IMG/VR virus record: IMGVR_UViG_3300032331_000486
Span: 1-64,000 of that record
Source of the DNA: a virus
Strand: one strand, 5' to 3'
Length of the DNA stretch: 64,000 nucleotides
Below the pieces are notes generated by a model. It ran no database searches. It had not been told where the DNA came from and saw nothing but the letters and a program-made list of their open reading frames with translations. The first letter of the stretch is position 1. Each line of letters opens with the position of its first letter. This document shows, one piece after another, positions 8,349 through 38,700 of the stretch. The translations under genes were made by a program, and so were the position numbers.

Positions 8349-8608
8349 TTGCCGCACGGCCCGAGAGCTTCTAAGTATTCTTCGTCTGTGGGCATGACAA
8401 CTACTTTGCTCTGAGTCTCAATCCAAACATGCGCTCCACAGGACAGTGGTTTATCGGGAGAGTAGACAATTTTGCTAGGGCCTAAGACGCTCACCTCATG
8501 GGCGTATCTGTTGTCCTTGTAAGTCTTTACAGTCAGGACTGGCTCATTCGCCCCACTCTTTCTGTTGGACTTTATAACGTGCTGGTTCACATGGATGATT
8601 GTCTTCAT
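8345..8608 (-). CDS. Small protein between regulator and terminase, unknown
   Basis: The 87-residue product begins MKTIIHVNQHVIKSNRKSGA and is basic at the N-terminus. It contains short beta-like segments (VLTVKTYKDNRYAHEVSVLG) and LSCGAHVWIETQSKVVV, suggestive of a small beta-barrel. It overlaps both neighbours by 4 nt. No family is recognised with certainty. Confidence 0.6.
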   Translation of the reverse strand: MKTIIHVNQHVIKSNRKSGANEPVLTVKTYKDNRYAHEVSVLGPSKIVYSPDKPLSCGAHVWIETQSKVVVMPTDEEYLEALGPCGK

Positions 8609-8838
8609 GAAAGACTTCTGAACTTTACATAGCTAGGACGAATAGACCGCGCGCTCTTAGCTAGTCTCTTACACGCACCCATCTCTACTAGCTTCTTCAT
8701 AGTCCTGTGGACATTACCCCTACCTTTATCCCCCGTCATAAACATAACGTCATCCACAGTCGGGCCGTAACCAAACTTTTTCCACCATTCGTCTATAACT
8801 AAATATATAGTTCTCTGTTTCTCAGTCATATCATTCAC
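8605..8838 (-). CDS. LexA-like winged-helix DNA-binding protein
   Basis: The 77 residues match the N-terminal DNA-binding domain of LexA in order and spacing: MTEKQRTIYLVIDEWWKKFG, then GYGPTVDDVMFMTG, a recognition helix (GRGNVHRTMKKLVEMGA) and a short wing (RSIRPSYVKF). The LexA cleavage/dimerisation domain is absent. The start is GTG (or an ATG at 8829), and neither has a clear Shine-Dalgarno. A 30-bp element containing the dispersed palindrome lies one base upstream of the GTG, suggesting autoregulation. It may be a transcription switch for packaging or early genes. Confidence 0.75.
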   Translation of the reverse strand: MNDMTEKQRTIYLVIDEWWKKFGYGPTVDDVMFMTGDKGRGNVHRTMKKLVEMGACKRLAKSARSIRPSYVKFRSLS

Positions 8839-8839
8839 T

Positions 8840-8869
8840 TGTAATACTTTTAGGGTGGAACAAGTTCCA
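8840..8869 (-). promoter_or_regulatory. 30-bp palindrome-containing element, copy 1
   Basis: Read on minus, the 14-bp palindrome TGGAACTTGTTCCA is followed by CCCTAAAAGTATTACA. The same 30-mer occurs on plus at 10274-10303 and differs only in the central dinucleotide. It sits immediately upstream of the winged-helix gene. It looks like an operator or phage-specific promoter element. Confidence 0.65.
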
Positions 8870-8871
8870 AT

Positions 8872-9123
8872 CTAATGTTTCCAAAAAATCACGGGCGTTC
8901 TCTCACCCATATAAGCACCTTCGATATTGAACTCAATGTACTCAATAGCCTCAAACTGCTCCATACCGTCGCGCTCCATAAGGATGTCAACTATCTCATC
9001 GCCGCTATAGACAAGCACATCTACTCGAGTGTTATCTCTCCATATACAGGCAGTACCAATAGCAGCTTCATCAAAGCCATCTATCTTCAGTAGATCGGAA
9101 TCCAACTCATCAAAATCAATCAT
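8872..9123 (-). CDS. Small acidic protein, unknown
   Basis: The start chosen is the ATG preceded by GGAGAA, giving 83 residues (MIDFDELDSDLLKIDGFDEA); an upstream in-frame start would add 16 residues but lacks a good ribosome site. The protein is very acidic, with an alternating strand/helix pattern and no Cys cluster. It lies between the small terminase and the winged-helix gene. Function is unknown. Confidence 0.6.
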   Translation of the reverse strand: MIDFDELDSDLLKIDGFDEAAIGTACIWRDNTRVDVLVYSGDEIVDILMERDGMEQFEAIEYIEFNIEGAYMGERTPVIFWKH

Positions 9124-9179
9124 GTGTTTCTCCAAAAATATACCCCCCACCCCTTTTGTATTAGAAAACATAAGGGGGC

Positions 9180-9953
9180 CTAATCCATATCCTCGAACTT
9201 CTCTGTAGTCTGGCCAATTTCAGAGGCATCCACCCGGAAGCTTTTTTCTGAAAATTTTTGTACTTTTGAAATTTCTTGTGATCGAATGTCTGAAACAGTA
9301 TGTGAACCAGACACCCACGCGGGCGCGTCGATTTGGGGCTCCGCCCCCTCGGTGGGGGCGCTGGGATCCGCAATCGTAGAGGCTGGGGCTGGCGCAAGTT
9401 CCGCTAGCAATGATTGCGCGCTGTCGTCTTCTACTAGCTTAGAGTCCACATCGATAGCTGTGCCTAGCGTTGCGAGTAGGCGCGCTCTGATATCTGTGCT
9501 CCGATTGATTGTCGTGATCTCTTTGCGTTCCACGAATGCTCCGACCTCGTACAGTTGGCCTAACAGGCGTAAGCACTGGACACGCGCGCTCGGTGGGAAG
9601 TCATCGTCCAAGCTATGTTGCACCAGCTGTTGGACAAGCAATGCCTTCAATTGAGTAGGAGTTCTATGTTTCTCTGCCTCTATTGCCAGCTTATACGCCT
9701 CGACTTCCGTTTGGATTCGGGTATCACGGCTCAGGCGACAAGCATTATCCCCTTGAGTCTTGACACTTCCCTTAGTGTTATAGCTCTCTCTGTAGCTTTG
9801 TGCCTTAGTCTTACCTAGTGCGAGATTGCGGGCGAATTCCCTTTGCTTACTGGTTAAGTTGGCTTTCTTATTGGCTCCGCTACTTAGCAAGCTCTCTATC
9901 GGGATCTGTTCTAACCCTTCTTTAATCTGCGCGCGCGTTAGTTTCTGTGGCAT
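9180..9953 (-). CDS. Putative terminase small subunit
   Basis: The 257-residue product is taken from the ATG preceded by GGAAA. Residues about 30-75 (NLTSKQREFARNLALGKTKA followed by QSYRESYNTKG) match the helix-turn-helix start of small terminases of the Terminase_2 type. Residues 75-150 are helical, and the C-terminal 100 residues are a Pro/Ala/Asp-rich tail of low complexity. It should recognise phage DNA and activate the large subunit. It heads the minus head operon, four genes before terL. Confidence 0.75.
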   Translation of the reverse strand: MPQKLTRAQIKEGLEQIPIESLLSSGANKKANLTSKQREFARNLALGKTKAQSYRESYNTKGSVKTQGDNACRLSRDTRIQTEVEAYKLAIEAEKHRTPTQLKALLVQQLVQHSLDDDFPPSARVQCLRLLGQLYEVGAFVERKEITTINRSTDIRARLLATLGTAIDVDSKLVEDDSAQSLLAELAPAPASTIADPSAPTEGAEPQIDAPAWVSGSHTVSDIRSQEISKVQKFSEKSFRVDASEIGQTTEKFEDMD

Positions 9954-9988
9954 TGTGTTTCCATAGGTATATCTGAGGAATAACCCCA

Positions 9989-10017
9989 AGCATAACCAAA
10001 CCCGCGCTCTAATGCAA
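9989..10017 (-). promoter_or_regulatory. Possible sigma70-like promoter for the packaging operon
   Basis: On minus, TTGCAT (10017-10012) and TATGCT (9994-9989) are 17 nt apart, upstream of the small-terminase start. Each box matches consensus at four of six positions, so this is only a candidate. Confidence 0.35.
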
Positions 10018-10076
10018 AGCACCCTTACATTTACCAGCTGTGCCAGTCTATGTATCTGTAACTACTGGACACACTC

Positions 10077-10244
10077 ATGATCTACCTAATCTTCACCCTT
10101 GGCTTTGTATCCTTCGCGCTCTGTGCTCTCGGAGCTGTACTCTCTAGTGACCACGACCGACGCCAAGCTGAGATCCGCGCGCGCGCTCAAGCTGAGTTGG
10201 ATGCACTCACACACGACAGGGATAAGCTCGCTAGCACTCTGTAA
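10077..10244 (+). CDS. Small membrane protein with helical tail
   Basis: A 55-codon ORF begins MIYLIFTLGFVSFALCALGA, a hydrophobic segment of about 22 residues. It ends in an Arg/Glu/Gln-rich amphipathic helix (DRRQAEIRARAQAELDAL). A GGA lies about 10 nt before the ATG. It is divergent from the small terminase and precedes the early promoter, so it would need its own transcription start. A small membrane-anchored host-takeover or superinfection protein is possible, but no family is recognised. Confidence 0.45.
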   Translation: MIYLIFTLGFVSFALCALGAVLSSDHDRRQAEIRARAQAELDALTHDRDKLASTL

Positions 10245-10273
10245 ACCCAAGCATTACAAAAAGCGCTGCAAAC

Positions 10274-10303
10274 TGGAACAAGTTCCACCCTAAAAGTATT
10301 ACA
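10274..10303 (+). promoter_or_regulatory. 30-bp palindrome-containing element, copy 2
   Basis: TGGAACAAGTTCCA followed by CCCTAAAAGTATTACA. It is the inverted partner of 8840-8869 and has the same orientation relative to the genes it precedes. It lies 26 bp upstream of the predicted early promoter at 10329. Confidence 0.65.
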
Positions 10304-10328
10304 GGGTAAGTCCCTATAAAAATAATGC

Positions 10329-10367
10329 TTGACAAACCATGTCAACGCCATACATGATAGAGGCGTT
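10329..10367 (+). promoter_or_regulatory. Early-operon promoter with overlapping operator-like inverted repeat
   Basis: A perfect TTGACA at 10329-10334 is followed by candidate -10 boxes TACATG (16-nt spacing) or CATGAT (18-nt spacing, 10353-10358). AACGCC (10344-10349) and GGCGTT (10362-10367) form an inverted repeat that straddles the -10 region, as an operator would. The first gene starts at 10410 behind AAGGAG. Confidence 0.55.
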
Positions 10368-10409
10368 AGTCATGTGTTGTGCCTAACAAACCTACCATAA
10401 AGGAGTCAG

Positions 10410-10601
10410 ATGTATACCGCTCAGTCCAATAGAAATGGCAATGTCATTGTCTGTAAAGATGAGACGCCACGCCAGTCTTACGAGATCATTCACACAGGCA
10501 CCTATCAGGAATGCCTAGAGATCAAAGTCCGCTACATGGCTCACATTGAGTCCGCCAAGGCCTTGATTTCAATGCACTTTGGGAGTTACAACAATGTCTG
10601 A
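10410..10601 (+). CDS. Early small protein, unknown
   Basis: The 63-residue product starts MYTAQSNRNGNVIVCKDETP behind AAAGGAG. It looks like a short beta-sheet followed by a helix (TYQECLEIKVRYMAHIESAK). It is the first gene of the rightward early-type operon and overlaps the next gene by 8 nt. No family is recognised. Confidence 0.6.
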   Translation: MYTAQSNRNGNVIVCKDETPRQSYEIIHTGTYQECLEIKVRYMAHIESAKALISMHFGSYNNV

Positions 10602-11845: not shown

Positions 11846-12013
11846 ATGCCAACCAAACAAGAAATCCACGAATTTTTACTCGAGCTCCGCGACTCAGGAG
11901 AAATCAATATGTTCGGGGCTGGTTCATACCTCCAAGAGGAATTTGGTATGACACGCTACCAAGCAAAGGACGCGCTACTGGAATGGATGCAATCATTCAG
12001 GACGCCAGCCTAA
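11846..12013 (+). CDS. Early 55-residue protein, unknown
   Basis: The short ORF reads MPTKQEIHEFLLELRDSGEI then a Gly-rich turn and EEFGMTRYQAKDALLEWMQS. The two helical halves resemble a small winged-helix or UBA-like fold. It ends in a TAATG overlap with the GP88-like gene, which supports real translation. Function is unknown. Confidence 0.5.
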   Translation: MPTKQEIHEFLLELRDSGEINMFGAGSYLQEEFGMTRYQAKDALLEWMQSFRTPA

Positions 12014-12657
12014 TGCGAGTAATCTCGATCAAGACCGCTCAGGCGGTCTGTGGCACCCTCACTCAAACGAGCAAGATGCCATGCAAGTCTTACAGCCTTC
12101 CGACCGAGGCCTGTAAGACTGGCTACAAAATGGCTCAACAAGCTGGCTCAGTGTGCGCCAGCTGTTACGCTGACAAAGGCCTGTACGCGCTTTACGCTAA
12201 CCGCGTGAAACCCGCCCAGTTCGCTCGGCTCGACTCTCTCAGCAATCCGCTATGGGTTGAGGCAATCGTTAGCCTGATCGGCTCCGACAAGTTCTTTCGG
12301 TGGCATGACGCTGGTGATTTGGCTGGCCTTTGGCACTTGGAGAAGATCGCTCGCGTTGCCCAGCTGACGCCTAAGACCAAGCACTGGCTACCGACGCGCG
12401 AGTACGCTGTAGTTAAAAGCTACATCGCGAAGCACGGCTCATTGCCTAAAAACCTGATGGTTCGGCTTTCGGCTATGTTCCCCGACAAAGTGGCACTTGT
12501 TCCAGCATCGCTCAAGGGCATCAAAAATGTGACTGTCTCGAATGTCCATACTGATAAACCCTTGGGCAAAGAATGCATGGCACCAGCTCAAGGCGGTGAA
12601 TGCCGAGACTGTCGCGCTTGCTGGAGCTCGGCTGTCGTCTCTTACAAACTTCACTAG
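12013..12657 (+). CDS. GP88-like phage protein
   Basis: The 214-residue product starts at the ATG overlapping the upstream stop. A longer reading from 11983 would overlap the preceding gene. It carries Cys-rich motifs at both ends: SVCASCYADKG near residue 45, and CMAPAQGGECRDCRACW near the C-terminus. A central KFFRWHDAGDL segment and LPTREYAVV match the pattern of the phage Gene product 88 family, whose biochemistry is not established to my knowledge. The Cys clusters could hold a metal or iron-sulfur centre. It is the largest early-operon product. Confidence 0.7.
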   Translation: MRVISIKTAQAVCGTLTQTSKMPCKSYSLPTEACKTGYKMAQQAGSVCASCYADKGLYALYANRVKPAQFARLDSLSNPLWVEAIVSLIGSDKFFRWHDAGDLAGLWHLEKIARVAQLTPKTKHWLPTREYAVVKSYIAKHGSLPKNLMVRLSAMFPDKVALVPASLKGIKNVTVSNVHTDKPLGKECMAPAQGGECRDCRACWSSAVVSYKLH

Positions 12658-18527: not shown

Positions 18528-19349
18528 TTAAGCCTTTTCTGCCTTCTCTGCACGGCGTTTCCAATATGTAACTTGTTTCAGGAGGTCAGCATTCTTTTGC
18601 TGGTAGTCGTTCCTCGATGCGGTAACCGAGCGCAACTGTGCCTCGAGGTTTGAGACTTCTTTACGCAAAGAGCCAAGCGTTGATTCAATCTCTGCCTTGG
18701 CCTCTTGGGTAGCTGGAAGCTGTTTGATCGCCAGCTGGTCTTTGAGCTTAGTGTTCTCTTGCGCCAGCTCTTGATGCTCTGCAGCCATTTCTTTCAGCAT
18801 ATCTTCATTGTGGTCATATGCTTGAGGCTTTGCTGGCGGAGCTGGTGGAGCTGGAGGAGGCTTAGGAGTCTGGGGCTTACCGCCTTTAGGTGGCTTGGGT
18901 GGCTTGGGAGCTTTCTGTAAATCAAACTCCTTGCGAAGGCGACCGATGGTCATGTGACTCACATTACAAATCTTGGCTATCTTCCTGTCGTCCATCTCGC
19001 ATATCTCAGGATCAGTCAAGGCCGTGATGACTGTATCGCGCTTCTCTTCATTAGTACGAGGCATACCATGGGTGGCATTCGCACCAAGTGAGAAGATGAA
19101 AGCGGCGCGTTTTGTGCCATTTATTTGTTCGCACTCGATCTCTTTGAAGCCAGCCGCCTTGTGTGCGTGATAGCGGTGGAATCCGTCGGCTAGCCAGTAG
19201 TGCTTGCCGTCAAAGAAAACAGTAACAGGAGGCATTTTTACGCCGTCTAACAGAACTTCCGTGTAGTTCCTTACCGCCTCTTCACTAATGCTCTTGCGGG
19301 GCTGGGTACCGCCATCCAACCTGATCTTGCTCAGTTCCAGTTTGATCAT
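18528..19349 (-). CDS. ParB-like nuclease-domain protein with HTH and coiled coil
   Basis: In the 273 residues, 1-85 form a ParB/Srx-like domain: GGTQPRKSISEEAVRNYTEV, then the ParB box-like WLADGFHRYHAHKAAGFKEI. Residues about 115-145 are a helix-turn-helix (DDRKIAKICNVSHMTIGRLR). A Pro-rich linker (PKPPKPPKGGKPQTPKPPPA) leads to a long coiled coil. No ParA gene is seen, so this is more likely a DNA-binding or CTPase-type regulator or replication protein than a partition pair. It is a candidate binder of the dispersed palindrome. ATGA overlap with the upstream gene. Confidence 0.8.
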   Translation of the reverse strand: MIKLELSKIRLDGGTQPRKSISEEAVRNYTEVLLDGVKMPPVTVFFDGKHYWLADGFHRYHAHKAAGFKEIECEQINGTKRAAFIFSLGANATHGMPRTNEEKRDTVITALTDPEICEMDDRKIAKICNVSHMTIGRLRKEFDLQKAPKPPKPPKGGKPQTPKPPPAPPAPPAKPQAYDHNEDMLKEMAAEHQELAQENTKLKDQLAIKQLPATQEAKAEIESTLGSLRKEVSNLEAQLRSVTASRNDYQQKNADLLKQVTYWKRRAEKAEKA

Positions 19350-21263: not shown

Positions 21264-21595
21264 ATGCACCTCATGTAAATGTTGTAAGTCATCTGTGATA
21301 TCACCAAGTCTGAAACTCCTTACCCGTTGACCCTCCCTCCCCAAGGAGGCGGGCCAAGGCTCTTTATCAGCGAGCATTGCCGAGTTTTTAAGTCGACTAT
21401 CGGACTGCCAATCCGCCTCCCTTGCATTTTTGGATGCATCCATGGGGTATGTGTAACAAGTTACATCGCTGTTTATTCTTTTCGATTTCTCTACTCAGAG
21501 GCGCGGGTCACGCCGAGGTTCCGTGTTCTCTTCCGCGCAGCCCATACAGGCTCTTACTAACGTGCGGAGTACGGTTGGCGTAGAAAGTACAGACG
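21264..21595. other. Gene-poor leader region of the leftward operon
   Basis: About 330 bp with no convincing gene apart from a possible N-terminal extension of the zinc-ribbon protein. On minus it contains pairing between positions 21420-21413 and 21352-21345 (GGAGGCGG/CCGCCTCC, 76 nt apart) and GCGCGG/CCGCGC around 21501-21538. It also holds the palindromes TGGATGCATCCA near 21430 and TGTAACAAGTTACA at 21452-21465. Confidence 0.5.
21452..21465. repeat. Variant of the dispersed palindrome (TGTAACAAGTTACA)
   Basis: A perfect 14-bp two-fold symmetric site that differs from TGGAACAAGTTCCA by a compensating change in each arm, so the symmetry is kept. It lies in the non-coding leader of the replication operon. 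Confidence 0.55.
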
Positions 21596-21722
21596 AAAAA
21601 AAGCCGTTTACAACTGCAATTCCGGTAGCAACCTTAGCAAATATCCCTCCGACCGAGGTTATTTGGTAAGGCGGAATCGCATGTGTAAACGGCCTTCATC
21701 TCCTGTCGCTTGCTACGGCAAC
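21596..21722 (-). ncRNA. Predicted pseudoknotted small RNA with its own terminator
   Basis: On minus a predicted transcript of about 127 nt folds into one long interrupted hairpin. The base stem is GCCGTTTACA/TGTAAACGGC (21693-21684 with 21612-21603). The middle stem is GCGATTCCG/CGGAATTGC (21680-21672 with 21624-21616, one mismatch). The upper stem is 12 bp with one mismatch (21671-21660 with 21643-21632), topped by CCTC/GAGG. A 7-nt bulge TTGCTAC (21631-21625) is perfectly complementary to GTAGCAA in the 5' leader (21716-21710), forming a possible pseudoknot. Seven T residues follow the base stem at once. A consensus promoter lies just upstream. No known RNA family is recognised. Confidence 0.7.
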
Positions 21723-21729
21723 GGATCGG

Positions 21730-21757
21730 ATTATACATAAATATTTGAAGTTGGCAA
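21730..21757 (-). promoter_or_regulatory. Strong sigma70-like promoter for the small RNA
   Basis: On minus, TTGCCA (21757-21752, five of six consensus bases) and a perfect TATAAT (21735-21730) are 16 nt apart. The predicted start is near 21722, about 6 nt before the pseudoknot strand of the downstream RNA. Confidence 0.7.
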
Positions 21758-21847
21758 TGCGCTCACATAAAGCAGTGTTGTTCAACTTTTGTATTTGCAC
21801 AACAAAAAGATACGGCGCTAACCCGTATTACGCATTACCAACAAGGC

Positions 21848-21900
21848 TGGAGATTGCAAGGCTGGGCGACAAGAGCCAGCATTAAGACGCTCAATCTCCA
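21848..21900. other. Stem-loop TGGAGATTG/CAATCTCCA with inner stem
   Basis: A 9-bp perfect outer stem (21848-21856 with 21892-21900) encloses a second stem GCTGG/CCAGC (21861-21865 with 21876-21880). Adjacent are ATACGG/CCGTAT near 21811-21827 and a direct repeat AAGGCTGG (21843 and 21859). It may be structured RNA upstream of the small-RNA promoter or part of a replication origin. Confidence 0.45.
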
Positions 21901-21911
21901 TGCGTGTTGAT

Positions 21912-21940
21912 ATGTATAGAAAACTCAAAAAACTATACAT
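21912..21940. repeat. 8-bp inverted repeat ATGTATAG/CTATACAT
   Basis: Arms at 21912-21919 and 21933-21940 are separated by an A-rich 13-nt spacer. Its place between a terminator and a promoter suggests a protein-binding site or an AT-rich unwinding element. Confidence 0.45.
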
Positions 21941-21941
21941 G

Positions 21942-21969
21942 AAAAAAGTGGGGATCCGTAGACCCCCAC
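21942..21969 (-). terminator. Intrinsic terminator after the leftward recombination genes
   Basis: On minus, GTGGGG and CCCCAC form a 6-bp stem around a 10-nt loop, followed directly by six T residues. It lies 54 nt after the stop of the gene at 22023, separating that transcript from the small RNA and the replication operon. Confidence 0.8.
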
Positions 21970-22022
21970 AAGCCATTAAAGGAAAGCATGAAACCGGCAA
22001 CTGCGATCACCGGAAATTTATT

Positions 22023-22457: not shown

Positions 22458-22930
22458 GGTTTGTCTCCTTCTACCCCGTAATAAGCGATCAGAGCTGCAT
22501 CAGCAAATGCCTGACCAGCGCCCTTTTTGTCTAACTCCCTCCAGTCAGGCCACATCTGTATAGCCCGCGATCTGGCTGCATCTTTGTCTGTACCGATAAG
22601 CCCAGCGCGCTTCTTCCATGCTTGAGGTGGAACAAGTTCCACTGGCATCTTGAACGCCCCCAATATGCCGGCGATTACTCCACAGGAATGCCCAAAACTA
22701 AACATCGATGAAACCCCTTGCCCCGGCATTGCCCCTACTTGTTCTACATAGACCTGTACAGGGACATAACTGGCTGAGTAAGGCCTGAGCATAGCCGCCA
22801 ACGCGCTTGCGTTCACTCTGGAACTCTTACCAATCTTCATGATGGGCATACGAAATGCGTCCGATGGTTGGCCGTTGTAGAGCACCACGATAGCCCCTGA
22901 AACGCCGGGGTCGATACCTATTTTTCGCAT
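22454..22930 (-). CDS. RuvC-like Holliday junction resolvase
   Basis: The start is the ATG behind AAGGAAAA, giving 158 residues. The N-terminus MRKIGIDPGVSGAIVVL holds the first catalytic Asp (residue 7). VYVEQVGAMPGQGVSSMFSF gives Glu63. AGQAFADAALIAYYG gives Asp144. These are the RNase H-fold RuvC acidic residues in correct order. It should resolve branched DNA before packaging. It diverges from the nuclease/ERF operon on plus. Confidence 0.85.
   Translation of the reverse strand: MRKIGIDPGVSGAIVVLYNGQPSDAFRMPIMKIGKSSRVNASALAAMLRPYSASYVPVQVYVEQVGAMPGQGVSSMFSFGHSCGVIAGILGAFKMPVELVPPQAWKKRAGLIGTDKDAARSRAIQMWPDWRELDKKGAGQAFADAALIAYYGVEGDKP
22628..22641. repeat. Dispersed palindrome TGGAACAAGTTCCA inside the RuvC-like gene
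   Basis: An exact 14-bp copy. In the RuvC-like gene it encodes VELVP. Member of the set at 8856, 10274, 35162, 38975 and 46227. Confidence 0.6.
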
Positions 22931-23017: not shown

Positions 23018-23902
23018 GTGATCATCACGAACAAGTTCAACCTACCGCAGACCTTTGTGAACATCATGAAGCGTCCTACCTACTCTAAGGGCAGAGCACA
23101 CCTCTCAGCCACAGAGATCATCAACAGCCCGCGTATTGTGCTCTTGCGTAAGAAGCATGAGGACAAGATCGAGAGCGACGTAACAGAGATGGTTTGGTCT
23201 ATCTTTGGCACAGCGATCCACGGCGTCCTCGAGCACGGCAAGGACGAGAACCACCTAGTCGAAGAGCGTATCAGCACAACGCTCGACGGCTGGAATATCT
23301 CGGGCGCGATTGACTTACAGATCGTCAACGAAGACGGCTCTATCACCATCAATGACTACAAGACATGCGCCGCTTGGTCAGTTATGAATGAGAAGATTGA
23401 CTGGGAGTACCAGCTCAACATCTACGCATGGCTGGTTGAGAAGGTGAAACAAGTTCCAGTGACCAAGCTGGAGATCGTGGCCGTAATACGCGATTGGAGC
23501 CGTCGTGATGCGGCTACCAAGCAGAACTACCCAGACGCCCCGATCAAGGTCATACCGATCAATCTGTGGCCATTTGAGCAACGCGAGCAGTTCATCCAAG
23601 AAAGGATAACCCTCCACTCAAACGCCCTGTTTGAATCGGAGACGGGGGAGGAGCTGCCACCCTGTACACCAGAAGAGATGTGGGAAAAGCAAACCACCTA
23701 CGCCGTCAAGAAGAAGGGCGGAGTCAAGGCTAGGAACGTATGCCCCACAGAAGAAGAGGCCAACGCCAAGCTGGCTGAGTACGGCAAAGACTACGAGATA
23801 GAAGTGCGCCTTGGCGAGAGAACCCGCTGTGCCAACTTTTGTTCAGTCAAAACATTTTGTTCACAGTGGGAGGAATATGTTCTTCAACAACAGCAAGGCT
23901 AA
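23018..23902 (+). CDS. PD-(D/E)XK exonuclease, Cas4/RecB-like
   Basis: The GTG start behind AAAGGAG gives 294 residues; a longer reading from 22976 lacks a ribosome site and overlaps the promoter. Motifs of the RecB/Cas4 family are in order: HLSATEIINSPRIVLL, FGTAIHGVLEHGK (motif-I His), ISGAIDLQIVNEDGSITIND (Asp), YKTCAAW (D-Y-K), YQLNIYAWLVE (Gln/Tyr). C-terminal Cys residues (RCANFCSVKTFC, with C at about 245) could bind an iron-sulfur cluster as in Cas4. It probably resects DNA ends for the downstream ERF annealase. Confidence 0.8.
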   Translation: MIITNKFNLPQTFVNIMKRPTYSKGRAHLSATEIINSPRIVLLRKKHEDKIESDVTEMVWSIFGTAIHGVLEHGKDENHLVEERISTTLDGWNISGAIDLQIVNEDGSITINDYKTCAAWSVMNEKIDWEYQLNIYAWLVEKVKQVPVTKLEIVAVIRDWSRRDAATKQNYPDAPIKVIPINLWPFEQREQFIQERITLHSNALFESETGEELPPCTPEEMWEKQTTYAVKKKGGVKARNVCPTEEEANAKLAEYGKDYEIEVRLGERTRCANFCSVKTFCSQWEEYVLQQQQG

Positions 23903-25489: not shown

Positions 25490-25907
25490 TAACACCATTC
25501 AGTTTGAAGGTGTCAAGATGGGTTTGAAACAATCCAAGGACGGCTATGTGCTGACCTTGGCTGTTCACCCAGATGAGCTACCAGACGCGATGATGCGAGA
25601 CTTTGTTGGCTCGCGTTACGTTGTCGTGATGGTTCGTCTGGGTGACGATGAGCAACCCATGACCCGAGAGAACGAGTTCCCCGGAGATCACGCCGTTAAG
25701 ATGGCCGGTATCCTTTGCCGAGATCCTGAGTTCTGGGACTGGCTACACGCCAAGGAGTGGCTCATGGAGAAGAACGAGAAGGCTTGTTCTGAGTGGATTT
25801 ACTCCTACATTGGTATTGAGTCCCGCAAGGAGCTCAAGACCAATCAAGAGGCGCGCGAGTTATTTAACAGACTAAAAGCCAGTTTCGAGGCTTGGAGAAA
25901 CCAATGA
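25482..25907 (+). CDS. Conserved-type phage protein, unknown
   Basis: The 141-residue product begins with a beta-rich half (GVKMGLKQSKDGYVLTLAVH, PDELPDAMMRDFVGSRYVVV) and ends in helices with a WDWLHAKEWLM segment. This layout is common next to recombinases in phages. No catalytic motif is seen. It overlaps both neighbours. Confidence 0.6.
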   Translation: MTDNTIQFEGVKMGLKQSKDGYVLTLAVHPDELPDAMMRDFVGSRYVVVMVRLGDDEQPMTRENEFPGDHAVKMAGILCRDPEFWDWLHAKEWLMEKNEKACSEWIYSYIGIESRKELKTNQEARELFNRLKASFEAWRNQ

Positions 25908-26176
25908 AAAACCTAGTACCCTATAGCGTGTACTTGCCAGTTGAGTACTACGACAAAATTAAAGAGCTGGCTAAAGAACGAAAGGCTTCTAGCACTGTTA
26001 GAGACGCCATTTGTATGATCTTGGACGGCGATGACAAATTCCAAGCTGGCTATAACAAAGCCATCAAGGACGCCATAAAAGAGATTGACGCCATTAAGGA
26101 GATCGAGCATATTGCCATACGCGGGAAGTACTTAAACGACCTGTTGGCAACTCAGCTCAAACAATTGGGGGCATAG
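25904..26176 (+). CDS. Ribbon-helix-helix-like DNA-binding protein
   Basis: The start is the ATG overlapping the previous stop, giving 90 residues. The opening VPYSVYLPVEYYDKIKELAK then ERKASSTVRDAI fits the CopG/Arc strand-helix-helix pattern. The rest is a long charged helix likely for oligomerisation. It may repress or activate genes in this operon. Confidence 0.6.
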   Translation: MKNLVPYSVYLPVEYYDKIKELAKERKASSTVRDAICMILDGDDKFQAGYNKAIKDAIKEIDAIKEIEHIAIRGKYLNDLLATQLKQLGA

Positions 26177-26519: not shown

Positions 26520-26781
26520 CGCTGCCCGCTTGCTACCTTGCCAACACTGTGGAACAAGTGACGGCACTGTAGTAGCGGCGCACTCCAACCAGCTGCGCGA
26601 CGGCAAAGGACGAGGGCTCAAGGCTCACGACTACCGAATCGCATCTTTATGCTACAAGTGCCACGCTGATCTAGACCAAGGCGCTAGACTGAATAAAGTC
26701 CAGAGAGTTGAAATGTGGGAAGACGCCCATCGCAAAACGATAGGCCTCTTCTTTGAGATGGGGATTATTGGGCCGCTTTAA
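26494..26781 (+). CDS. YbcO/DUF1364-like HNH-type nuclease
   Basis: The 95-residue product has a CQHCG pair, VVAAHSNQLRDGKGRGLKAH and DYRIASLCYKCHADLDQGAR. The H-x-N...G-x-G-x-K-A-x-D...C-x-x-CH pattern matches the small YbcO/DUF1364 phage nucleases, related to HNH enzymes acting in recombination. It is the last gene of the rightward operon. Its 3' end overlaps the 3' end of the giant gene on minus by 17 nt. Confidence 0.75.
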   Translation: MYRNKKLTDAARLLPCQHCGTSDGTVVAAHSNQLRDGKGRGLKAHDYRIASLCYKCHADLDQGARLNKVQRVEMWEDAHRKTIGLFFEMGIIGPL

Positions 26782-29700
26782 CTTGCTCGTTGAATTTCTT
26801 CATCATTGCAACCTTACGATCCTTCATCTTCTGTATTGTTTCATCAGGCCGATCTCTCTCTTGAGCAACCTTTATTTGCTTGTTTATTTGAGAGATCTGG
26901 TTCTCTAAGTAGTTAGCCCTGTTGTAGTATCTCCACTCTGGATGCTCAGACTTGTAGTCAGCAGTAGGCTCCTTGTTCTTGATCAGGCTTTTGATCTCAT
27001 TCTCATGCTTTGCCAAACGGGTTACGTTGTCATAGAAGTTAGCTGAGATTGCAGCAGGAGAACCAGTCTCTCCCAAGAACTTACCGACGATTGGCACTCT
27101 GTACGTTGGCACCTCCTCTGTAGTACCTTCAGCAATTGCGCCAATATACTGAGCCCCTTTCATGATTTCACGACCAACACCGCCCGTTGCTTGTCCAATC
27201 AGATAATCAATCTCATCAGCGGTATAGTCTATAGATCCCTTGGTGTATTTAGTTCCAGCTGGAGACGATACATAGTTTAAGAACTCAGATATGAACTGAC
27301 TTATTGCGCTTGCACTTTCGCGTGAACGCATGTAGCCCGGAGTTGGATTGGTAGCGCGATCCTCTTTGTAGATCGGACGTCCAAACGCATCCTTGTTTGC
27401 AGCAATTGCGGCAAAAGGATCTGCAACAGTAGGCATAGCCATCTGCCACAAGCTTCCAGAACCAAACGGGTTGAACGCTTCTACAGTCATCGACATGATA
27501 TCGACCACTACGTCAGAAGCACCCTTCTTACTGCTGATGACGCCGTTTTGAGCCAGTATGTACTCAGTGATCAGGCGGCCAAGTCCGGGGAATATGCTGT
27601 AGCCCAAAGGCATTGGGAACACTTTGTATGTGCCGTCGCCAGTTAAGCTAGGAAAGATGAAGTTCTTTGCTTTGATGAACTCAGGAGGATCATCGTCATC
27701 AAACCCAGCCATGGCCATAGCCAACGCTTGAGCAATACCGACCACTACACCACCGACCATGATCTTGCGACCAGCTGGGCCAGCGAGAGTGCGGCCAACT
27801 TTCAATCCACCCTGTACAGAAGCATTAAAAAATGCATACAGAACTTGAATCCACTTGCTGGCTGCACCCTTGCGGTTAAAGTTAACAGTCAGGTCTTTGG
27901 CAATAGCCGCGCCTTCTTGCTCACTTAAACCTAAACCACCATCTGCAACAGACTTAGTTGCAATATCAAAAGCAGCCAGACGGACGGCGTTTTCCATGGT
28001 GTCGTTGTAGTCTGACAACCAACCAAATATGCTATCAGCAATCTGTCTGGCGTTACCACGATCAAGCTTGGCAAGCTCTCTCTCAACAATGGTTAACTTG
28101 TTTTGGCCTTTACTGAACTGTTCTTTAAAGCCAGTCTTACCACCAGCTAGTCTGTATCTGTTGTAGGCATCAACCCAGTATGAGCTGACAGCCTTGCCCT
28201 TACGGGTAGCGCGCAACTCCCTGTATATGGCGGCCATGGCAGGCATAGTGTTTAAAAGCACCTGCGCTTGTTTTCCAGCAAGGGGCGTGTTTGTCAGGTT
28301 AATCGTGGCAGAACCAACGTCGCGTAAGAAGTTCCACGCGCCGAACACTGGGTTGTACTGAGTGTTAACCGCCGCCATCCAACGAGTTGCGCTGCCAACT
28401 ATTCCCAGAACCATGGCAAGCTTTTCAGATTCTAAGTTCTTCAATGTCTCAGCCATACGCAAAGCGCGTGGATCATTACCATTAAAGAAGACATACCAAT
28501 CTTTTCCGTTGACGCGAACAGCCACTACATTTTTACTGTCGCGCAGTGTTGGGTTGACCTTGTATCGGACTAACCCAGTTTTAGGATCAATGCTCGGACT
28601 CTTAGGCTCTTGGAATAAGTTCTGTGCATCCGTGGGGTTTAGACCAAGCCTGATCAGCTCATCTTCAAGCTTCTTCTTGTTCTTGATAGCGTCAGGGTTG
28701 ACGGCCATCCAAAATCCGGGGTTTGGATTTTTAATAACCAGACCAATTAAAGCTTTACCAACCCGCGCAGCTTCTGAATTAATAATGGCTTTCTCGCGTT
28801 GGACGGCAATGTTGGAAACAATATCAACAACATCTTTCAACGAGCCCATGGCTCTTTTACTAAACGGGCCTTTGGTCTGAATGCCTTTGGCTACTCCGCT
28901 ACCAGTGTTGACATAGTCCAAGTCTGCGCGCTTTAAAGGAACATAGTTGGGGTATGTTTGATTCCAAATGTCAATAGTTTCTTGAGTCTCTAGACCGCCC
29001 TCTACTGCAACTTCCTGAGTCCTTCTTACGATAGCGTCAACTTCTTTAGCCAGTGCCTCGAACTTATCCTTCTGGTCTTGGGTTAAGTTGTTCAGGTATG
29101 CGTTTGCATCATCGGTAAAAATGCCAGATCCAGCATCCGGCATGGTTAGATTGATTTTGGCAATCTGAATGTTGTACTCTTCAGCGTGGCGGTTATGGAG
29201 GTACTCCTCCAGCTCGGCCAGCGTGACTTTCTTCTCGCGCATATCTTTCAAGATAGGCAGAAGTTCTTTGTTCAGGAAATCCTGTATGGCCTCTGACGCC
29301 CTACCATGCATCAACGTCTCTTTTGTATAGGCGTCGAAGTTCTCCTGAATTGTTCCAGCGCCTTTCTCAATCTCACGAATAACGTGCTTGAGGTCAACAA
29401 ACTTGTCAGCCAACTGATACTCAATGTTTGTCATGGTTGTTGAGTCTGGCGATGACCACTGAGCTACTGGAGCTGGGCCGCCTTGGTAGTTCCTAGAGAA
29501 GAATGGCTCTGGAGTTCCAAACAACTTAGGTGCAGAGTCTGCTGCAGCTGCAAACTTCTCTGCGTTCTTGAGCAAAGCCAAGATGTCGCTGTCAGAGAAC
29601 TTGATTGTGAAGCCAGCATCTCTGAGCCATCTACGCACAGCTTGGATCACACGTTGTACCAAACCACCATAGAGCCCGCGCTCTGCCATGATGGCCACGA

Positions 29701-32700
29701 TTTCTTTAGCACGACGCTCGTCAGACAGGCCGGGTTGTGTGCGGTCTACTTGAGCTGCAATGTCTTTAACAAGCTTAGAAGTCTCTTCTAGCGTCAAGAC
29801 GTTTTTAACCAAAGCGCCCATCAACTGCTTGCCAAGCATTGCTTCCAACGCGGCGTGACCGATAGCCTCATGCGCCAACACTTCCTGAACACGCTGGGCG
29901 TTAGGTAGGTTGTCAGCTACGAGGTAGACAGTATTGCCTGAGTACCACACACCCTCAACATCAGAAGGCGCGCACTGGTCTGGCAGATCATCAGAAGATT
30001 GAACGACGTTAACCCTGATACCTTTGATCGGTACGATTTGAGACTGAACATCTTTAACGCTCTGGCCGCCCTCGGCAACCTTACGAGAGAACATGCCCTT
30101 CTTAGATTCGCTGTCGTCAAACTCAACTTTCATCACCTCGCGGGCAAGTTGACCGGCGTCAGCTTCCACAGTCGCTGGGTAACTCTTATGCAACTGCTTG
30201 ATGAGTGAAATGATTTTTTCAAAGTTTGCTATATACGATCCGCGAGACATCTCATAGCGCCCACCCTGCTTAGCCATGGAAATGTCTTTGATAGACGTAA
30301 CAAACTTCTTAGGCGCGTCACCAGATATAGATAACCTAAAGCCAAGAGGCCTGTAGCTATCCAGACTCAACGTCCACAGGTTTTGTGTGCCACGAATAAT
30401 GACGTTGGTGTAAGTACTCTTTTGAAGATCGGTAAACGTCTGGAAGTCAGGCAGGTTTGGCAACAAAAGTGGTTGCAGCATATCTGCCAAGTTTTTGTAC
30501 TCTTCAACTTGAGTACCTTCGTACTTGTTTTGCAAAATCTTTTGCCAAGCAGCCAATGTATATTGCACGGCAGCATTAGGATTACGCAGGCGTACAGGCT
30601 GTGCGCTGATAGCCACAGGCTCATACTTGGCAGGCATGATCACACCAGAGACTGGCTCTGTCTGATTCATGATGGTGAACTTAGCAATCTCACCGCCGTC
30701 TTTGTCAAACAGCTGCGCCGCTCTTAGGATATTTCCAAGAGCAACATAACGTGTAGTACGTCCACCAGTTACTGACTTCAAAGCAAACCACTGATCCAAT
30801 GGAGGATTGCGCCATGAGGAGCTCTGGTCAATGCTTGGGCCTTCCAAGGTAGCCAAGGTAGGAGCAACCCTTCCCTCTGGAATGTTGCGCTTAAAGATGA
30901 CTTGGAAGTTAGATGGTGAGTATGGGTTACCAGTCTTGGACTTTCCAATCCTAGCTTTGTCAACTTTGATACCAATTACAACCGCGCTTGCTGGAACATT
31001 ATTTAGCATGAAAGACTCAAAGCCAGTGCCAATTGCGTACTGATTTCTCAAGGCGTTTAGAGTTTTTTCTCTGCGATTACCAAGAGTAGCAAAATCCGCA
31101 TCCAATGCTTCTTTTCGCTTGGTTGCTACTTGAATATCTTTTTCGGTAGCGTTAGGTGCAGCAATTTCTGCGGCCAAAGCTTGCTGTTTTAAGATAATTT
31201 GGTTTCTTGCTTCAACAAAGATTGTATTGAGATCGGTGTCAATCTCTTCTACAACCTGCTGGGCAGTACGGCCGTTCAAGGCTTGGGCAATGTCGTCCAG
31301 AATGTTTTGCTGGGTGGGTATTGAGCCAATAACGTCCACATTAAACTGAGCCATTACCACATCAGTCAGGAATGGGTTGTTGCTGTCCAAGCCTTCCTCG
31401 ATAAGGTTTTCTTTAATCATCTCGGCATTGAGCGGGAGAACGCGGCGCTCTAGGGCATTGGTGCCTGTAGAGTTACGCAGCTCAATATTGGCCAAGTAAC
31501 TAGCCTCGATAGAGTCAAAGAACTCCTGTTGATCTGCGGAAGATAAAAGTCCAGCTGTTCCAGATGCTTTGTGTGCCAAGTCTGTGCCGGCAGCCTCTTC
31601 AGGATCATTAAATGATTGCTGTCCTAAGAACGCACGAATATCAGCGTGTTCGTTCAGGTACTCAGCAGTAGCGACGTCACCATATCTATTGATAAAGTCA
31701 ACGCCACCAACTTGAGTACTATTAGATCCACCAGATGTGTTGGACTTCAAACTAGCCAGCTTCTTTTTAAGCATGGCTGAAATGCGTCTTTCAGCTGGGA
31801 TGCTAGTAGCCAGCATGGTGAACGATGGCCACTCGACCTGACCAGTGCGGTGGATACGACCCAGCAGCTGGATGAAGACGCTGATGTCTCCATGAGGCTG
31901 AAGCACAATCATATGGCGTGGGCGCTGATCAAAAGCCTCAGTAGATGCATGTAACGAGATACCAGTTGCACCAGCAGAGTTAATGATCAATACATCGATT
32001 GGCCCGTTTTCAGATTCTTCCCCGTTTTGGAATGAAGAAATCATTTCAGTACGCTCTGGATTGTTTAGAGACATGTACTTTGGTTTATCACCGTTGTAAT
32101 TTACAGCCGTGCTACGACCAGTAATTTCTCTCACTACCAAGCGTCTTGCTTTAACTCCGGGTGGAGGCTCGTTGCCAACATGTGTTTTTTCGCCAATTGT
32201 CCAAACGTACTTGTTCTCAAGCTCGGTACGCATGTAGTCAATTGGAGCTACAGGCAGATCAGATTGGAAGTCTTTGATCATGTCTGCCAAGTTGTCGTAG
32301 CCAGCCCTGATTGATGGAGGCATCATGGAGTATGGAATCTCAACTTTGATGTTGTCCTTTTCATTTCCAGTGGCGGACTTCAGTGTGATTTTTCTAGTCG
32401 AGTCAATGGCGCGCTGCAAAAGAGTCTGCCAACCAAAGTTAGGAATCTCATCGCCAATCTTGATGCCGTTCTTTTCAACAAAGTCATCTAACGCACTGCC
32501 GTTTGTGTTTTGCAAGCCAACAACAACCTTTTCGCCGTTGTTCATCTTGTCCACGACCATGTCTACGGCAGTTTGAGTTTTGGTAGAAAGCAGCAAAGTT
32601 CCAATGTAGTTGTGGACTACAGAAGTAAATGGATTGCCTTTGGCTTCATTGAAGGCAGTTGGGCCTTCTTTACCAAACATAGAGCCGGGAGGGCCAAGTG

Positions 32701-35700
32701 TGTTAATAATTTCAACTTGAGTTCCGGGATCTTTTGTCCACTCTTTAAGAGCGCGATCAGCATTTACCAACGCTCTGAGAATGACTGTAACTTTATCCAC
32801 TTCCCTGATGTCACGCGGTGCATTTGGATCACCCGTAGCTTCATCAGGATAGAAATACATCTTCACGCCTTCATACGATCTTTCGCGGCGCAACATGGAG
32901 CCAGACTCCACCAGCATCTCAGATGAAACTTGTTGCAGTACGTCCGTCTTCACACCCTTACCAAATAAGGCCGTCAACTCTTCAGGAGTGTTAGCCGCAT
33001 AACGTAAGTTAGTGTGGATGTACAAAGGCATGTTGTCTGGGCGCTTTGCAAACGTCGCAGACAAGTACACAGCAGGAGGTGGCTGCCAATCTTCAGGAGC
33101 ATCCTTGTCTTTGCCCAACAAGTTAAGTCCTGTGAGCAAGGACATGAAGAATGCGTTTTGACCCCTAGAGTTTGGATTAATTGCCACGCCAGCTGCGTTA
33201 TGGGCTTCGTCCATAACCAATACGGCTTTACCAGCGGCTACTAAAGAAGCTATGGCATTCTGTCTTGCTGGGGATCCAACACCACCGTTAAGCTGAGAGT
33301 AAGACGTAAACAGTACATCCATACCTTTTGGCAGCTCACCGTTTTTGGTGATGTACGACATTAAATTAGGACCAGCTTTATCCGCGTTTTCAAATACAGT
33401 TTTGATCCTGCCATTACCCATGTTTCTTTGGATGATGGCTTTGTTGTTGGTCATTCCAATTTTGATATCTTCATGGCCAATGTTGATCAAGTCTTCGTAC
33501 ATCGCTGTGTACATTGATTTGCTAACGGTTACAAAGATTGGGATCTTCCCGTTTTTCTTAGCCCAGACAATCATGGCAGCTGCAGCACGGCCTTTACCCA
33601 CGCCGGTGTCGTCACCGATGATGAAACCCTTACCAAGCTTGTTAGCCTGAATAGCCAGAGCCAATCCGTCTATCTGGTAACCAGCTAGTCCTTTAGCCAT
33701 CTTCTCAACCGATGGATATCCAAGTTCGTTAGCTACAAACTCATCTATGTTTCCAACTTGAGCTTCAAGATTTTCTAATGCTGTGTAAGCGTGTTGAGAC
33801 TGAGCGCGTGGTAGGTAGATGCCATCGCTAGAGAAGCGTGACTTGCCAAGGTAAACAACGCGGGATTCAGTATCAATAGGTTCGGCTTGGACAGGAGTCT
33901 GGTTCTTGGGGCGGCGTTGTACCACTGTGCGTAAGCTGTCCACAAACGTGCGTAGATGCGCCTTGATGGATTCACCAAATCTTTTTACCAGCAACTCATA
34001 AACTTGATTGATACGTTGGGCTAAGTCACTAACTCTTTCTCCAACGGCATTCCATACCTTCTGAATAATTGGTTGGACGTTAGCGTATTCTTGATCGCCT
34101 TTTCTAGAGTACAGCCCGCTGTTGGGATCATCACTAGTGTTCTTAGTGTTCTGGGCAATACGACCCATAGCCTCGTTGGCTTGCTTATCTAAACGAGCTT
34201 CGCTATTTTCTTCTGTAACTTCTTTCGCCACCTCGGGAGCTTTGCCGTTCAAGGCAACATCTAGCTCATCGAGTAAAGCCTCAAGACCTAAGCCTTCCAA
34301 CTCTTTTGGAATGACTGTCGGGCCTTTGGCTGTCGGTGTTCTTGGCGCTTTTGGAGCGCCGGGTTCTTTAGGAGCTCCGCGAGGTGCGCGTGGGCCACCT
34401 TTTGGTTTTTCTGGTTTACCTAGCTTATCAAAGATGGCGTCTAGGTCTAAGTCAGAAAGTCCTCCCAGTTCAGCTCCTGATCCTCTACCGCTGTCAAGGC
34501 CTCCTTCTGGCTTGCCGGTTTCGCCACCGCCGGATCCCCTGCGTTTACCATTTCCATAATCCGGCTGTTGTTCTCCAGTACCAGCTGCACCAGTTGTTCC
34601 TCGTCCTCCACCGGCGGTAGTTCCAGCGCCCCGTCCTGTTTCAGGTAGCTGTTCGCCGACTCCACTGCCTCCTTGAGTCCCCACTCCCGCACCAGTTTCT
34701 CCATTTTCCAGCGTACCGCCTGCTGGTACTCCCCCGGCAGGTCGATTTGCACCGCCAGTAACTGGCTTTCGTTTTCCGGTACCCACCACGACTTGTTGGC
34801 TACGATCACTGGTTTGAACATATCTACTCCAAAGTTCATCAAATGTAGTTATCCGATTGACATTAAAGTCATTTGGATAAAAGTTTTCCGTTTGGTTTCT
34901 GCCGGCAATAACTAAGACGCGCAACGGCCAAGACGCACCTTGTTTACGATATAAGTTGCCAGCGATTTCATAGTGGTCTACTACGTTGTAGTTGGCATAT
35001 AACCAGTTTAAGAATGCCCGATCAGGCGTGGTTATTGTTCCAGCTTTAAGGTGTGCTCCAAGTATCAATACAGCACGGCCGTTGTTAGCCATGGCGCGTA
35101 AAGATTTGGCCGCAATCAATTGCTCTAATTTACTAATCTTGTAGTTTTGACCATCCCAAGATGGAACAAGTTCCGGAGTTGGCAAGTTGTCAAACGGAGG
35201 ATTAGCCAAGACTACGTCAACTTCTTGATCTCTCAAGTCATCAATCTTCTCAAGAGCATCACCTTGAATAACTTTGCCGATCTGCATCAGCTCCATGTTC
35301 TTAGCGCGGTGTGGGTCTAACTCTATCGTTGTGACGTTTTGTGGGTTGGCAGCTACCACCAGCATTCCGTTACCGCCCGTGGGGTCTAGGACTGTAGTGG
35401 TGGACTTAACTTGTGCCAGCATACCGGCTAGAAAGCCGATAGGCAGAGGTGTGGAATAAGCGTTGTTTGTCTTGCTCAGGACAGACTGAACGTCCAATGT
35501 AGGCTGGGTTTGATACAGGCCAACGATGTGATCGTAAATAGCCTTTGTATCTGAGCCTGCTGCTCTCATATCGGTAATGACTTGGCTAACAAAGCGTACA
35601 GCTGCAGCTTCAAAGTCTTCTTGAGTCTGCTTGAGCTTGACGCGGTCACCCTCAAAGTCGGAAATCTTGTAATTTTCTATTTCGCGTTGATCTTTGGCTG

Positions 35701-38700
35701 GGTTAAAGCCAAGCAAATCTGGCTTTTGTAAGTACGCTTTGATACCGTACTCTGCCAACTCACGGTTGTTCTTTGGCCACCAGCCTTGGCGCATGTGATA
35801 GAACATGGACTCAGCCATTGAGCCGTTTTTAATCTCAGGCCACTTGAATAGACCCATTTCTTCCATGATGGAGTCAACGCGCTTTGCCATGTCAATGATG
35901 CGCTGGTTGACTTTGCTTATTTGCATGGCTTCAGGAGTCAAGACTCTTTCTTGACCATTGCGAAGTTCTTTGGTTTCTTCAGCTTCTTTTTGGTCTTTAA
36001 ACCACTGCAAGCCACCATAAGTGCCTGAATCTAAGTTGTACTGATCCAAGACGGCGTAACCCAAGTCTTCAATAAAGACGATCTTGGTTTCCATCTTGTA
36101 GGTCTTGACCGCCAGAGTCTCTGGATCAATCTGTTCAAGCATCTGCTTGTAGACTTCATTGAGTGTGGGTCGCTCTTTGCCTGCTGGATAAGATGTTCCA
36201 CCGTAACCATTCTTCTTTGATATATATCCATCAGCAACCGTTGGGCCTACGAGGTATGGCGATCCACCTTTAGATTCATCAAACAACATAGACTCAAAGG
36301 CGCGAGACAATAGTTCTTCGTTGGAACTCCAATAGGCAGGACTTCTGTTTTCTGCTTCATCTAAAGCGCGGGCATCTCTAAAGAACTGAGTTTGTTTGTA
36401 TGAATTCCTAAAGATTGGCGCTTGCTCATAATACGAGCGGTTTGTAATCGCAGCAAAAAACGCTTTCTTAGGAGGTAAATTACGGTTGTCTGTGCTGTTA
36501 GATGTATCCCGCAGAATGGCTTTTAGATTGTTTTCTACTGTCTCAGGGTCTATGGTGTTTCTAAGAACACTGACTGTGCCTTCCATCAGCTTTTTGCCGT
36601 TGGCTCCTTGCTTAAGGTTCCAATCTAAGCCATGTTGCCACTCATGACCAAGCGATCCATCGCCTTTGGTTTTGGTGAGGTTTATTTCATTAAGATTTGG
36701 ATAGTAATGAGCTGCAGTTCTACCGCCTCTTCCTTGCGCTCCAATAGCCATCTTGAGCTTTTGACCCAAGCCAAGCATCTTTGGAGAAATACCAGAGACA
36801 TCCGCCAAGTCATACATGGCGTCATAGATGGCATTCAAATGAGCCGCGCGCTCGCTCTGGTTAACCCAGTTACCAAAGTCAATACCGCCCGGGAACATGC
36901 CAAACGTATCTACAAAGTCTTTTGTATCAACGTCACGACCTTGGCGGTGATCACGCATACCACGGCGGATGATGTTGCCTAGCTCTGGTGGTACTTCAGT
37001 TTCTTTTTTGACGATGCGGTTAGTTTGATCGGTTGAGTCTTCATTAGCTCCAAACAACTGGAACATCTTGTCAAAGATTCCAGTTAAGTTATTAACTTTT
37101 AATTTGGTACGAAGAGCAAGACCATCTGGCGTGTACTTTAATGTTGACGAATTTGCATTTTCGTCTTGAACGTATTTTTCCTTTAATGCAAGATCCAAAT
37201 CGCCTGCACGGGCGTGAGAATCAAAGACTGCTTGAAGTTTTTGAAGCGCATCAACATAACCTTGCACAAGCATTTGAACTTCATCTTGCTTACCCGCTTC
37301 CAAAGCCATTTTGATAGCTTGTCGGCTACCCGTTCTTTCAGATATACGAACAGTTCTGGCATTTTTAAGAGCTGCAAGAATATAGTCAGATGCAGGCAAT
37401 ACATAGCTTACAACGCCCTCTTTGTACATCATCGTGCCAAACGAATTGTCTGGGTTTGAATTGATATCGAGAAGAGTATCTTTAGCCAAGCCTGCCAACA
37501 TCTTGGTGATCTGGCTGTCTGTAGCATCTTTAGGTATTGGAGGAGCAGTAATTAAACTTTTTCGGTTTTTAACAAACTCAGCGCCACCACCTTGGATGCT
37601 TACCTTTTCAGGTTTGTACAGAGCGGAAATAGTTACACGCTCAGGGCCTTTGTAATCAGGGTTGTCCGTGGTCGCTGGGACTGAGCGATCTGTAATACGA
37701 AATCCAAACTTAGACAGAGCAGTCTCAATAGTTGAAACATTGGGGATATCCACAGGGATGCGTAGCAACATTTCGTCAGGAAAGATCGCGGGCATCAGGT
37801 CTTCAGCTACGGCATTTCCGTACAAGAGAGACGCAACAGAATCTGCATTGCCAGACTCCATGGCAACCTTCATAGGATTCTTATTGAATTCCTCTGCTTT
37901 TTTCTTTTGCTCTTCAGCCTTAGCTTTTTCCTCTGCGGCTTTAGCTTTTTCTTCTTCAGAGACTTCTACCTTTGGAGGCTTGGGCGCTTTAGGTGGAGCA
38001 GCGGGGCCGCCTGTAGGTTTCTCTGGTTCTTTTACAGGTGCGGCTGGGCCAGCTACAGGAGCGGGTTCTGCAGGCTTTTCTTCTGCTGGCTTCTCTGTAA
38101 CCTCTGCTGGTTTTTCAACAACTTCTGCAGGTTTTTCTTCTTTTGTAACTTCTTGTGGTGGAAGCTCAAGCGCCTGAATGTCATCAAGAGATAGGCCATA
38201 CTTTTCTTGGCCTTCTTTAATGGAGTCTAGATAAGTTTCAAACTCAGCAATCTCGTCTTCTGTATAGCCTCTTAATCTAGAGAACTGTTTCCAGTCACCG
38301 CTGTCGTAGGCGGCTCTTTCCTCTGGCGTCCAATCTTCTGGATTGCTTTCCTTTTCTTTGGCAGCCACGCTGTTTGAAAGCTCTATGTGTTTGTTTTCCC
38401 ACTCTTCAAGGGATTGAGTAGGAACTTCTTCAACTTTAGCGGGCTCAGTTGGTCCAGCTGTAACTTCTGCCGGAGCTTCTGGTGCGGCAGGCTCTTCTAC
38501 TTTGACGGGCGCAGCTGGCCCAGCAGTTGGAGCCGCTGGCTTGATGTTGAATAGCTCTGGATATTTTTGAGCGTACTTCCTAGCTTCTTGTTGGCTTATT
38601 GCAGATGGCAGGCCTTCCATTACTGAAACGGCTTCATTGATGCCCATGCCGCCTCTCAGGATTACAGTCTCAAGACTCTGCCCACGAAATACTGGGATTG

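Follow-up and report, generated by a model that had tools for sequence, protein, structure and literature searches.

Two 30-bp elements in inverted orientation flank the small-terminase gene (9180-10022) of an uncultured phage, and the question is what they do. The DNA analysed here, hereafter the window, is a stretch of 64,000 nucleotides from an IMG/VR virus record of 65,021 bases. The first-pass annotation had offered two explanations: a shared operator/promoter for a regulator of its own gene and the early operon, or the ends of an invertible or mobile 1.46-kb segment. The pair itself is as described, 30 nt long and 93% complementary with only the central AA/TT differing, and a repeat search returned it as the strongest inverted pair in the window. 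Each copy consists of a 14-bp palindrome, TGGAACWWGTTCCA, and a 17-nt tail, ACCCTAAAAGTATTACA, within which lies a -10-like AGTATTAC. Copy 1 (8840-8869, minus strand; palindrome at 8856-8869) faces the LexA-like/terminase/structural operon, and copy 2 (10274-10303, plus strand; palindrome at 10274-10287) faces the early plus-strand operon, the first ORF of which is at 10410. Between the small terminase and the next gene there is also a hairpin-like stretch of C and G runs (9138-9185, ccccccacccc...aaggggg), and similar stretches occupy the same place in many relatives.

The palindrome is far more widespread than the pair. At ≤2 mismatches, TGGAACWWGTTCCA occurs at 15 places in the window, five of them exact, compared to an expectation of 0.94 ± 0.91, and none of 100 shuffles reached 15. 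The tail is confined to the two 30-mers (window search, ≤3 mismatches). Hence, the 30-mer pair is real but represents the visible part of a dispersed set. The majority of copies lie within genes. Exact palindromes are found inside a RuvC-like resolvase gene (22628-22641, 348 nt upstream of the exonuclease/recombination operon), a giant gene of 4572 codons (38975-38988, in a variable linker after a DxEAMLxE-type peptide) and a ketosynthase-like gene (46227-46240). Copies with one mismatch lie inside the exonuclease gene (23445-23458), the giant gene (35162-35175) and the ORFs 42233-43483 (43201-43214) and 11983-12657 (12491-12504), and a copy with two mismatches lies inside the 3' part of a ParB-like gene (18567-18580). 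An intergenic copy, TGTAACAAGTTACA (21452-21465), sits 8 nt ahead of ATG 21443, the first start codon of the operon (21443-16080, minus strand) that contains the ParB-like gene; this site is unchanged in three relatives (G001, L120 and L123), and autoregulation of the ParB-like gene is possible. Besides the resolvase and exonuclease, the window encodes an Erf-like annealing protein and a helicase. No structured RNA or tRNA was found at the palindrome sites within the window.

Two other features of the window may be recorded here. The ~550 nt between the start of the ParB operon and the next gene (21466-22022) apparently lack a long ORF, match no Rfam family and could be an origin or control region. 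The ketosynthase-like ORF (45949-47315, minus strand, 369 aa) lies in the structural region and adjoins a possible ORF of acyl-carrier-protein size; the GenBank siphophage ctpbd312 (MW202545) has an annotated 3-oxoacyl-ACP synthase at a comparable place.

Comparison with the nearest relative, G001, shows that the palindromes are conserved beyond their surroundings. Fourteen of the 15 places align (the exception is 59681), 13 keep a site-like sequence and at least 11 sites are unchanged although the flanks differ by 2-17%, in coding and non-coding DNA alike. Both 30-mers, tails included, are retained in G001 and L121. The AGTATTA of the tail is also present in L007, which has TGTAACTTGTTACA as its palindrome. 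The earlier suggestion of a shared operator/promoter has good support. By consensus the tail is not a strong sigma-70 promoter, and a consensus promoter scan of 8500-10600 gave matches not above those in shuffles, so the promoter reading leans on tail conservation.

We then compared 80 terminase relatives, from metagenomic and often partial records. The LexA-like gene is present in nearly all of them, and its immediate upstream region often contains a palindrome whose sequence changes. Palindromes recur at the same places in the relatives, with sequence and spacer specific to each phage. In most of 13 long records, de novo scans returned a repeated palindrome distinct from those of the others, the spacer being 2, 3 or 4; the dominant palindromes include CTGTAAC-N4, CTTTAAC-N4, CTCTAAC-N3, AATTAAC-N3, GTGTAAC-N2 and TATTTTC-N3, and the own-palindrome signal of G003, G005 and G011 is weak taken alone. 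In 12 of the 13 records, a site lies upstream of the exonuclease start, 0-1.5 kb away. The motif of each phage was assigned by mixing the scan with a positional rule (a palindrome upstream of the LexA-like gene). The reversed-sequence control of two helix/half-site scans in effect counts palindromes with half-sites ending in G; in the scan without end-base restriction (ctpbd312 and H26) it is uninformative, because a reversed palindrome is still a palindrome.

In ctpbd312, whose ParB-like protein is distantly related to that of the window (43% identical), a palindrome of its own, ACTAGTCWGACTAGT, occurs in eight perfect copies, and two of these lie in the parB gene. In H26, from human gut, the palindrome scan gave GC-rich repeats only. 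The annotations of 023Pt_psg01 and DSL-LC04, the nearest GenBank phages by terminase, name no ParB-like gene, and neither phage was among the ParB search matches. Of all motifs in the set, the strongest taken singly belongs to a distant relative (L250:7706-12586, helix SDM), with five sites of GCGCAAC-N2-GTTGCGG type. The palindrome scan also caught several AGACCCC-N4-GGGGTTT hairpins in L254 and L256, which are probably terminators.

Conservation of a site within protein-coding DNA can be followed in the giant gene (26765-40483, minus strand). Its product, 4572 aa here and 3368 to 4572 aa among relatives, is probably a multi-domain 'polyvalent' protein. In the 110 nt after the conserved DxEAMLxE-type peptide, each phage's own motif was found at ≤2 mismatches in seven of eight genomes, or in all eight with a free spacer, compared to 1.75% of random windows. 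At this place the own motif has on average 1.0 mismatches and the motifs of other phages 4.6, which is random-like. The effective number is ~6, since G000/G001 and G004/G006 are close pairs. The linker peptide encoded at the site differs each time (QVEQVPT, LINSVNY, TNTVSV, SDIFTENM, ATLPPVNV), which argues for selection on the DNA word.

What protein might recognize these sites? The best candidate is encoded by 18528-19349 (minus strand; phrog_1033), for which domain content indicates an orphan ParB: a ParB/sulfiredoxin-like N domain, a helix-turn-helix (HTH) and a coiled coil, with no ParA. The order of ParB-type N domain and then HTH is that of the ParB family. A profile search against the PDB gave ParB at E 1e-5, and the Pfam ParB_N score was 18.5 bits, below the cut-off of 26.3. 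The AF2 model (pLDDT 79.7) has a ParB/Noc/KorB fold with a long C-terminal coiled coil, and its top Foldseek matches are ParB (ParB-CDP), Noc, KorB (8qa8, 8qa9) and Spo0J. The canonical GERR reads GFHR, with the second R kept. Box III, ENxQR, is replaced by an invariant A-N-x-x-H-G-x-x-R in which N is kept and E and QR are not in place, making an NTP clamp step uncertain; nucleotide choice of the ParB-CTPase fold is not reliably predictable from sequence (PMC12704722). ParA (PF13614) was absent in 13 of 13 genomes, some from incomplete records, with a control detected in 14 of 14. In a chromosome labelled 'Planctomycetes bacterium syqfu', a ParB-like domain related to that of the window is present in 12 or more separate copies (L260, L265, L266, L268, L278, L282, L284-L286, L293, L320 and L326).

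The recognition helix of the window protein is C-N-V-S-H-M-T-I-G-R, and across the family the segment S-x1-x2-T-V-G-R varies mainly at x1 and x2. By eye, x1 lines up with R173 in Caulobacter ParB, which belongs to the four specificity residues of that protein (PMC7383237). Particular helices go with particular half-sites: SHM with GGAAC, SSM with (A)TTAAC (14 contigs), SIS with ATTATC, SLA with ATTTTC, SVQ with TATTCC, SKA with GTATC, SNM with TTTAAC, SRM with (G/T)CAC and SDM with GCAAC. The predicted own site of the window protein is TGGAACAAGTTCCA, with CATTAACAGCTGTTAATG as contrast sequence and AATTAACAGTGTTAATT and CTTTAACAGCTGTTAAAG as heterologous sites. Among 48 phages, the difference in helix predicted the difference in half-site once overall ParB distance was removed (partial r 0.37, 0 of 2000 permutations), and the association held when phages were merged into 25 lineages (r 0.31, none of 5000 permutations). 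Helix class and core class, named after inspection of the data, each change five times on the tree with no mismatch. Four of four supported independent pairs agree (sign test p 0.125, with too few pairs to reach 0.05), and a count of x2=M versus AAC alone has one exception, L083. Statistically, then, the palindromic cognate sites appear to be set by the recognition helix. The main counter-observations are L224/L225 (SHM) and L134/L147 (SKM), in which the helix is readable and no cognate palindrome was found in the available DNA. Residues x1 and x2 do not set the outer bases, as SSM goes with ATTAAC and also with GTAAC/CTAAC, and the spacer tracks ParB clade rather than helix.

On this evidence, the palindromes are very probably operators of the ParB-like protein 18528-19349. 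Whether the predicted system acts mainly on transcription is a closer call, and we lean slightly toward it. The combination, in which the ParB-like protein has both operator-promoters and dispersed sites that serve mainly transcription, is in our judgement a likely account. The 30-mers would be two promoter-operators, each joining the palindromic site TGGAACWWGTTCCA to a promoter-like stretch with the -10-like AGTATTAC. Since 17 nt separate the TGGAAC half-site from TATTAC, an operator at 8856 or 10274 would cover the would-be -35 region, with TATTAC as -10. The phage's own ParB/KorB-type protein would recognize a dispersed set of ~8-14 sites, presumably binding as a dimer through its HTH; from sites away from promoters, NTP-dependent clamp loading and sliding may follow. 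The outcome would be control, most likely repression, of the LexA-like/terminase, early and ParB operons, by analogy with KorB-OB.

Another possibility is that the sites are centromere-like (parS-type) or organize the genome, with the ParB-like protein segregating, condensing or marking phage DNA and the promoter positions being secondary. The ParB fold is consistent with this, as is the fact that most sites lie within genes and are spread over the genome, with the giant-gene site being retained despite lying outside any promoter. Dispersed ParB-type sites are known for KorB of RK2 and for prophage N15. Against it, two sites share a promoter-like tail in close relatives and a third lies just upstream of the ParB operon. 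Moreover, neither ParA nor integrase was found in the 13 genomes, and thus there is no sign of a plasmid state needing partition. We consider this reading unlikely. A ParABS partition system as such can be rejected, because no ParA ATPase was found with ParB in the 13 genomes, some of them from incomplete records.

Could the sites serve some other DNA-binding protein of the phage, such as the RHH-like product of 25892-26176, with the ParB covariation arising from shared ancestry? The common phylogeny and the small number of independent changes allow for this. However, the ParB helix association persists after overall ParB distance is removed, and L229 has the helix (SHM) and motif (GGAAC-N2) of the window despite a ParB that is only about 54% identical (divergence about 44%). 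Phages with different motifs share an almost unchanged version of the proposed RHH strand, IPYSVYLP; as this is the likely DNA-contacting strand, the RHH-like protein was rejected as the specificity determinant. The shared-ancestry reading in general seems to us very improbable.

The first-pass annotation favoured the LexA-like product of 8605-8838 (minus strand; phrog_3502; PF01726 at E 1e-4, below the gathering cut-off) as the regulator. This gene is the first behind copy 1 and directly follows one copy in nearly all relatives, and the GAAC/GTTC half-sites resemble Gram-positive LexA boxes, in keeping with autoregulation through the palindrome. A GTG start at 8838 does lie 1 nt from the element, as had been noted; the start common to all relatives is ATG 8829 (MTEKQ), so the start is uncertain by three codons. 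The choice of regulator was probably wrong. L038 and L044 have LexA-like proteins identical over 73 residues and different palindromes, TATTATCAGCTGATAATA versus TATTTTCAGGTGAAAATA, L006 and L007 are a similar case, and the palindrome changes against a nearly constant recognition region, GRGNVHR. The half-site seems to track the recognition helix residues of the ParB-like protein, not the LexA-like protein. We give binding by the latter scant credence, and a LexA/SOS regulon is rejected because the operator does not track the LexA-type repressor.

Finally, inverted 30-mers bracketing the small-terminase gene could delimit a 1.46-kb segment that is invertible or mobile, but a dozen further palindrome places, the single relative orientation that TerS, TerL and the LexA-like gene show in all 13 genomes (the ParB, helicase and exonuclease genes, and gene order, are likewise constant) and the absence of any PF00589 or PF00239 recombinase (integrase/resolvase) among these genomes make this extremely unlikely. 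That no recombinase gene is seen had been noted before, and we too found none of tyrosine or serine type; with neither a recombinase nor both orientations seen, the class of invertible DNA segments is rejected.

How does the ParB-operator reading compare with known systems? The window matches the parts list of KorB-OB of RK2 except for ParA: a ParB/KorB fold, and palindromic operators that are spread across a genome of ~60 kb and in part lie at promoters. At OB, KorB is loaded and closes as a CTP clamp; it then slides and represses promoters, with help from KorA (PMC11790492). By analogy, the 18528-19349 product probably controls operons as KorB does. Unlike RK2, the window is from a phage, has no ParA/IncC partner and has an altered Box III; its protein ends in a coiled coil instead of KorB's C-terminal domain, and the operator sequence changes from phage to phage. 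In ParB-parS/Noc-NBS (PMC7383237), too, a few residues set specificity, including the one that aligns with x1. There, however, two fixed 16-bp sites are involved, whereas in the phage family natural specificities are numerous and spacers come in two to three lengths. Cluster A mycobacteriophages have phage-specific dispersed stoperators, partly in genes, that co-diverge with their repressor (PMC6550527). Those 13-mers are asymmetric, follow the direction of transcription and are recognized by a different type of repressor, while the window has palindromes and a predicted ParB-fold binder; its sites are not asymmetric 13-bp sequences in fixed orientation, which sets them apart from stoperators. 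As to the temperate life style with repressor-mediated immunity that goes with stoperators, the searches for an integrase or a recombinase of resolvase type gave none.

Orphan ParB-fold proteins without parA are known from phages and mobile elements (survey PMC12704722), and the ParB-like protein of the window resembles them. The survey has no text on cognate DNA sites of the phage orphans (a search for 'palindrom' was empty), in contrast to the window family, for which such sites are proposed here. In the literature searched, with incomplete coverage, there was no account of dispersed phage-specific sites for orphan phage ParB-fold proteins.

A broader proposal, which we put forward as speculation and think rather doubtful as a whole, is that in ParA-less phages an orphan ParB-fold clamp became a genome-wide transcription regulator with loading sites private to each phage. 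Helix-operator pairs would then diversify like immunity specificities, such that co-infecting phages avoid cross-regulation or deliberately exclude each other; one loading site would be maintained in a protein-coding linker, and at promoters the LexA-like neighbour may assist the clamp in the manner of KorA.

The phage studied here and dozens of related phages appear to use a DNA 'address' of their own as docking sites for a ParB/KorB-like protein. With each relative having its own version of the site, a protein-to-DNA recognition code would exist naturally in this uncultured family. Mobile elements commonly carry orphan ParB-fold proteins, few of which have known DNA targets; in this family, the predicted targets can be read from the sequence. 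The many natural helix-operator pairs within one family yield testable predictions about the evolution of ParB specificity and the role of an orphan ParB in a phage, and they supply candidate orthogonal ParB-site pairs.
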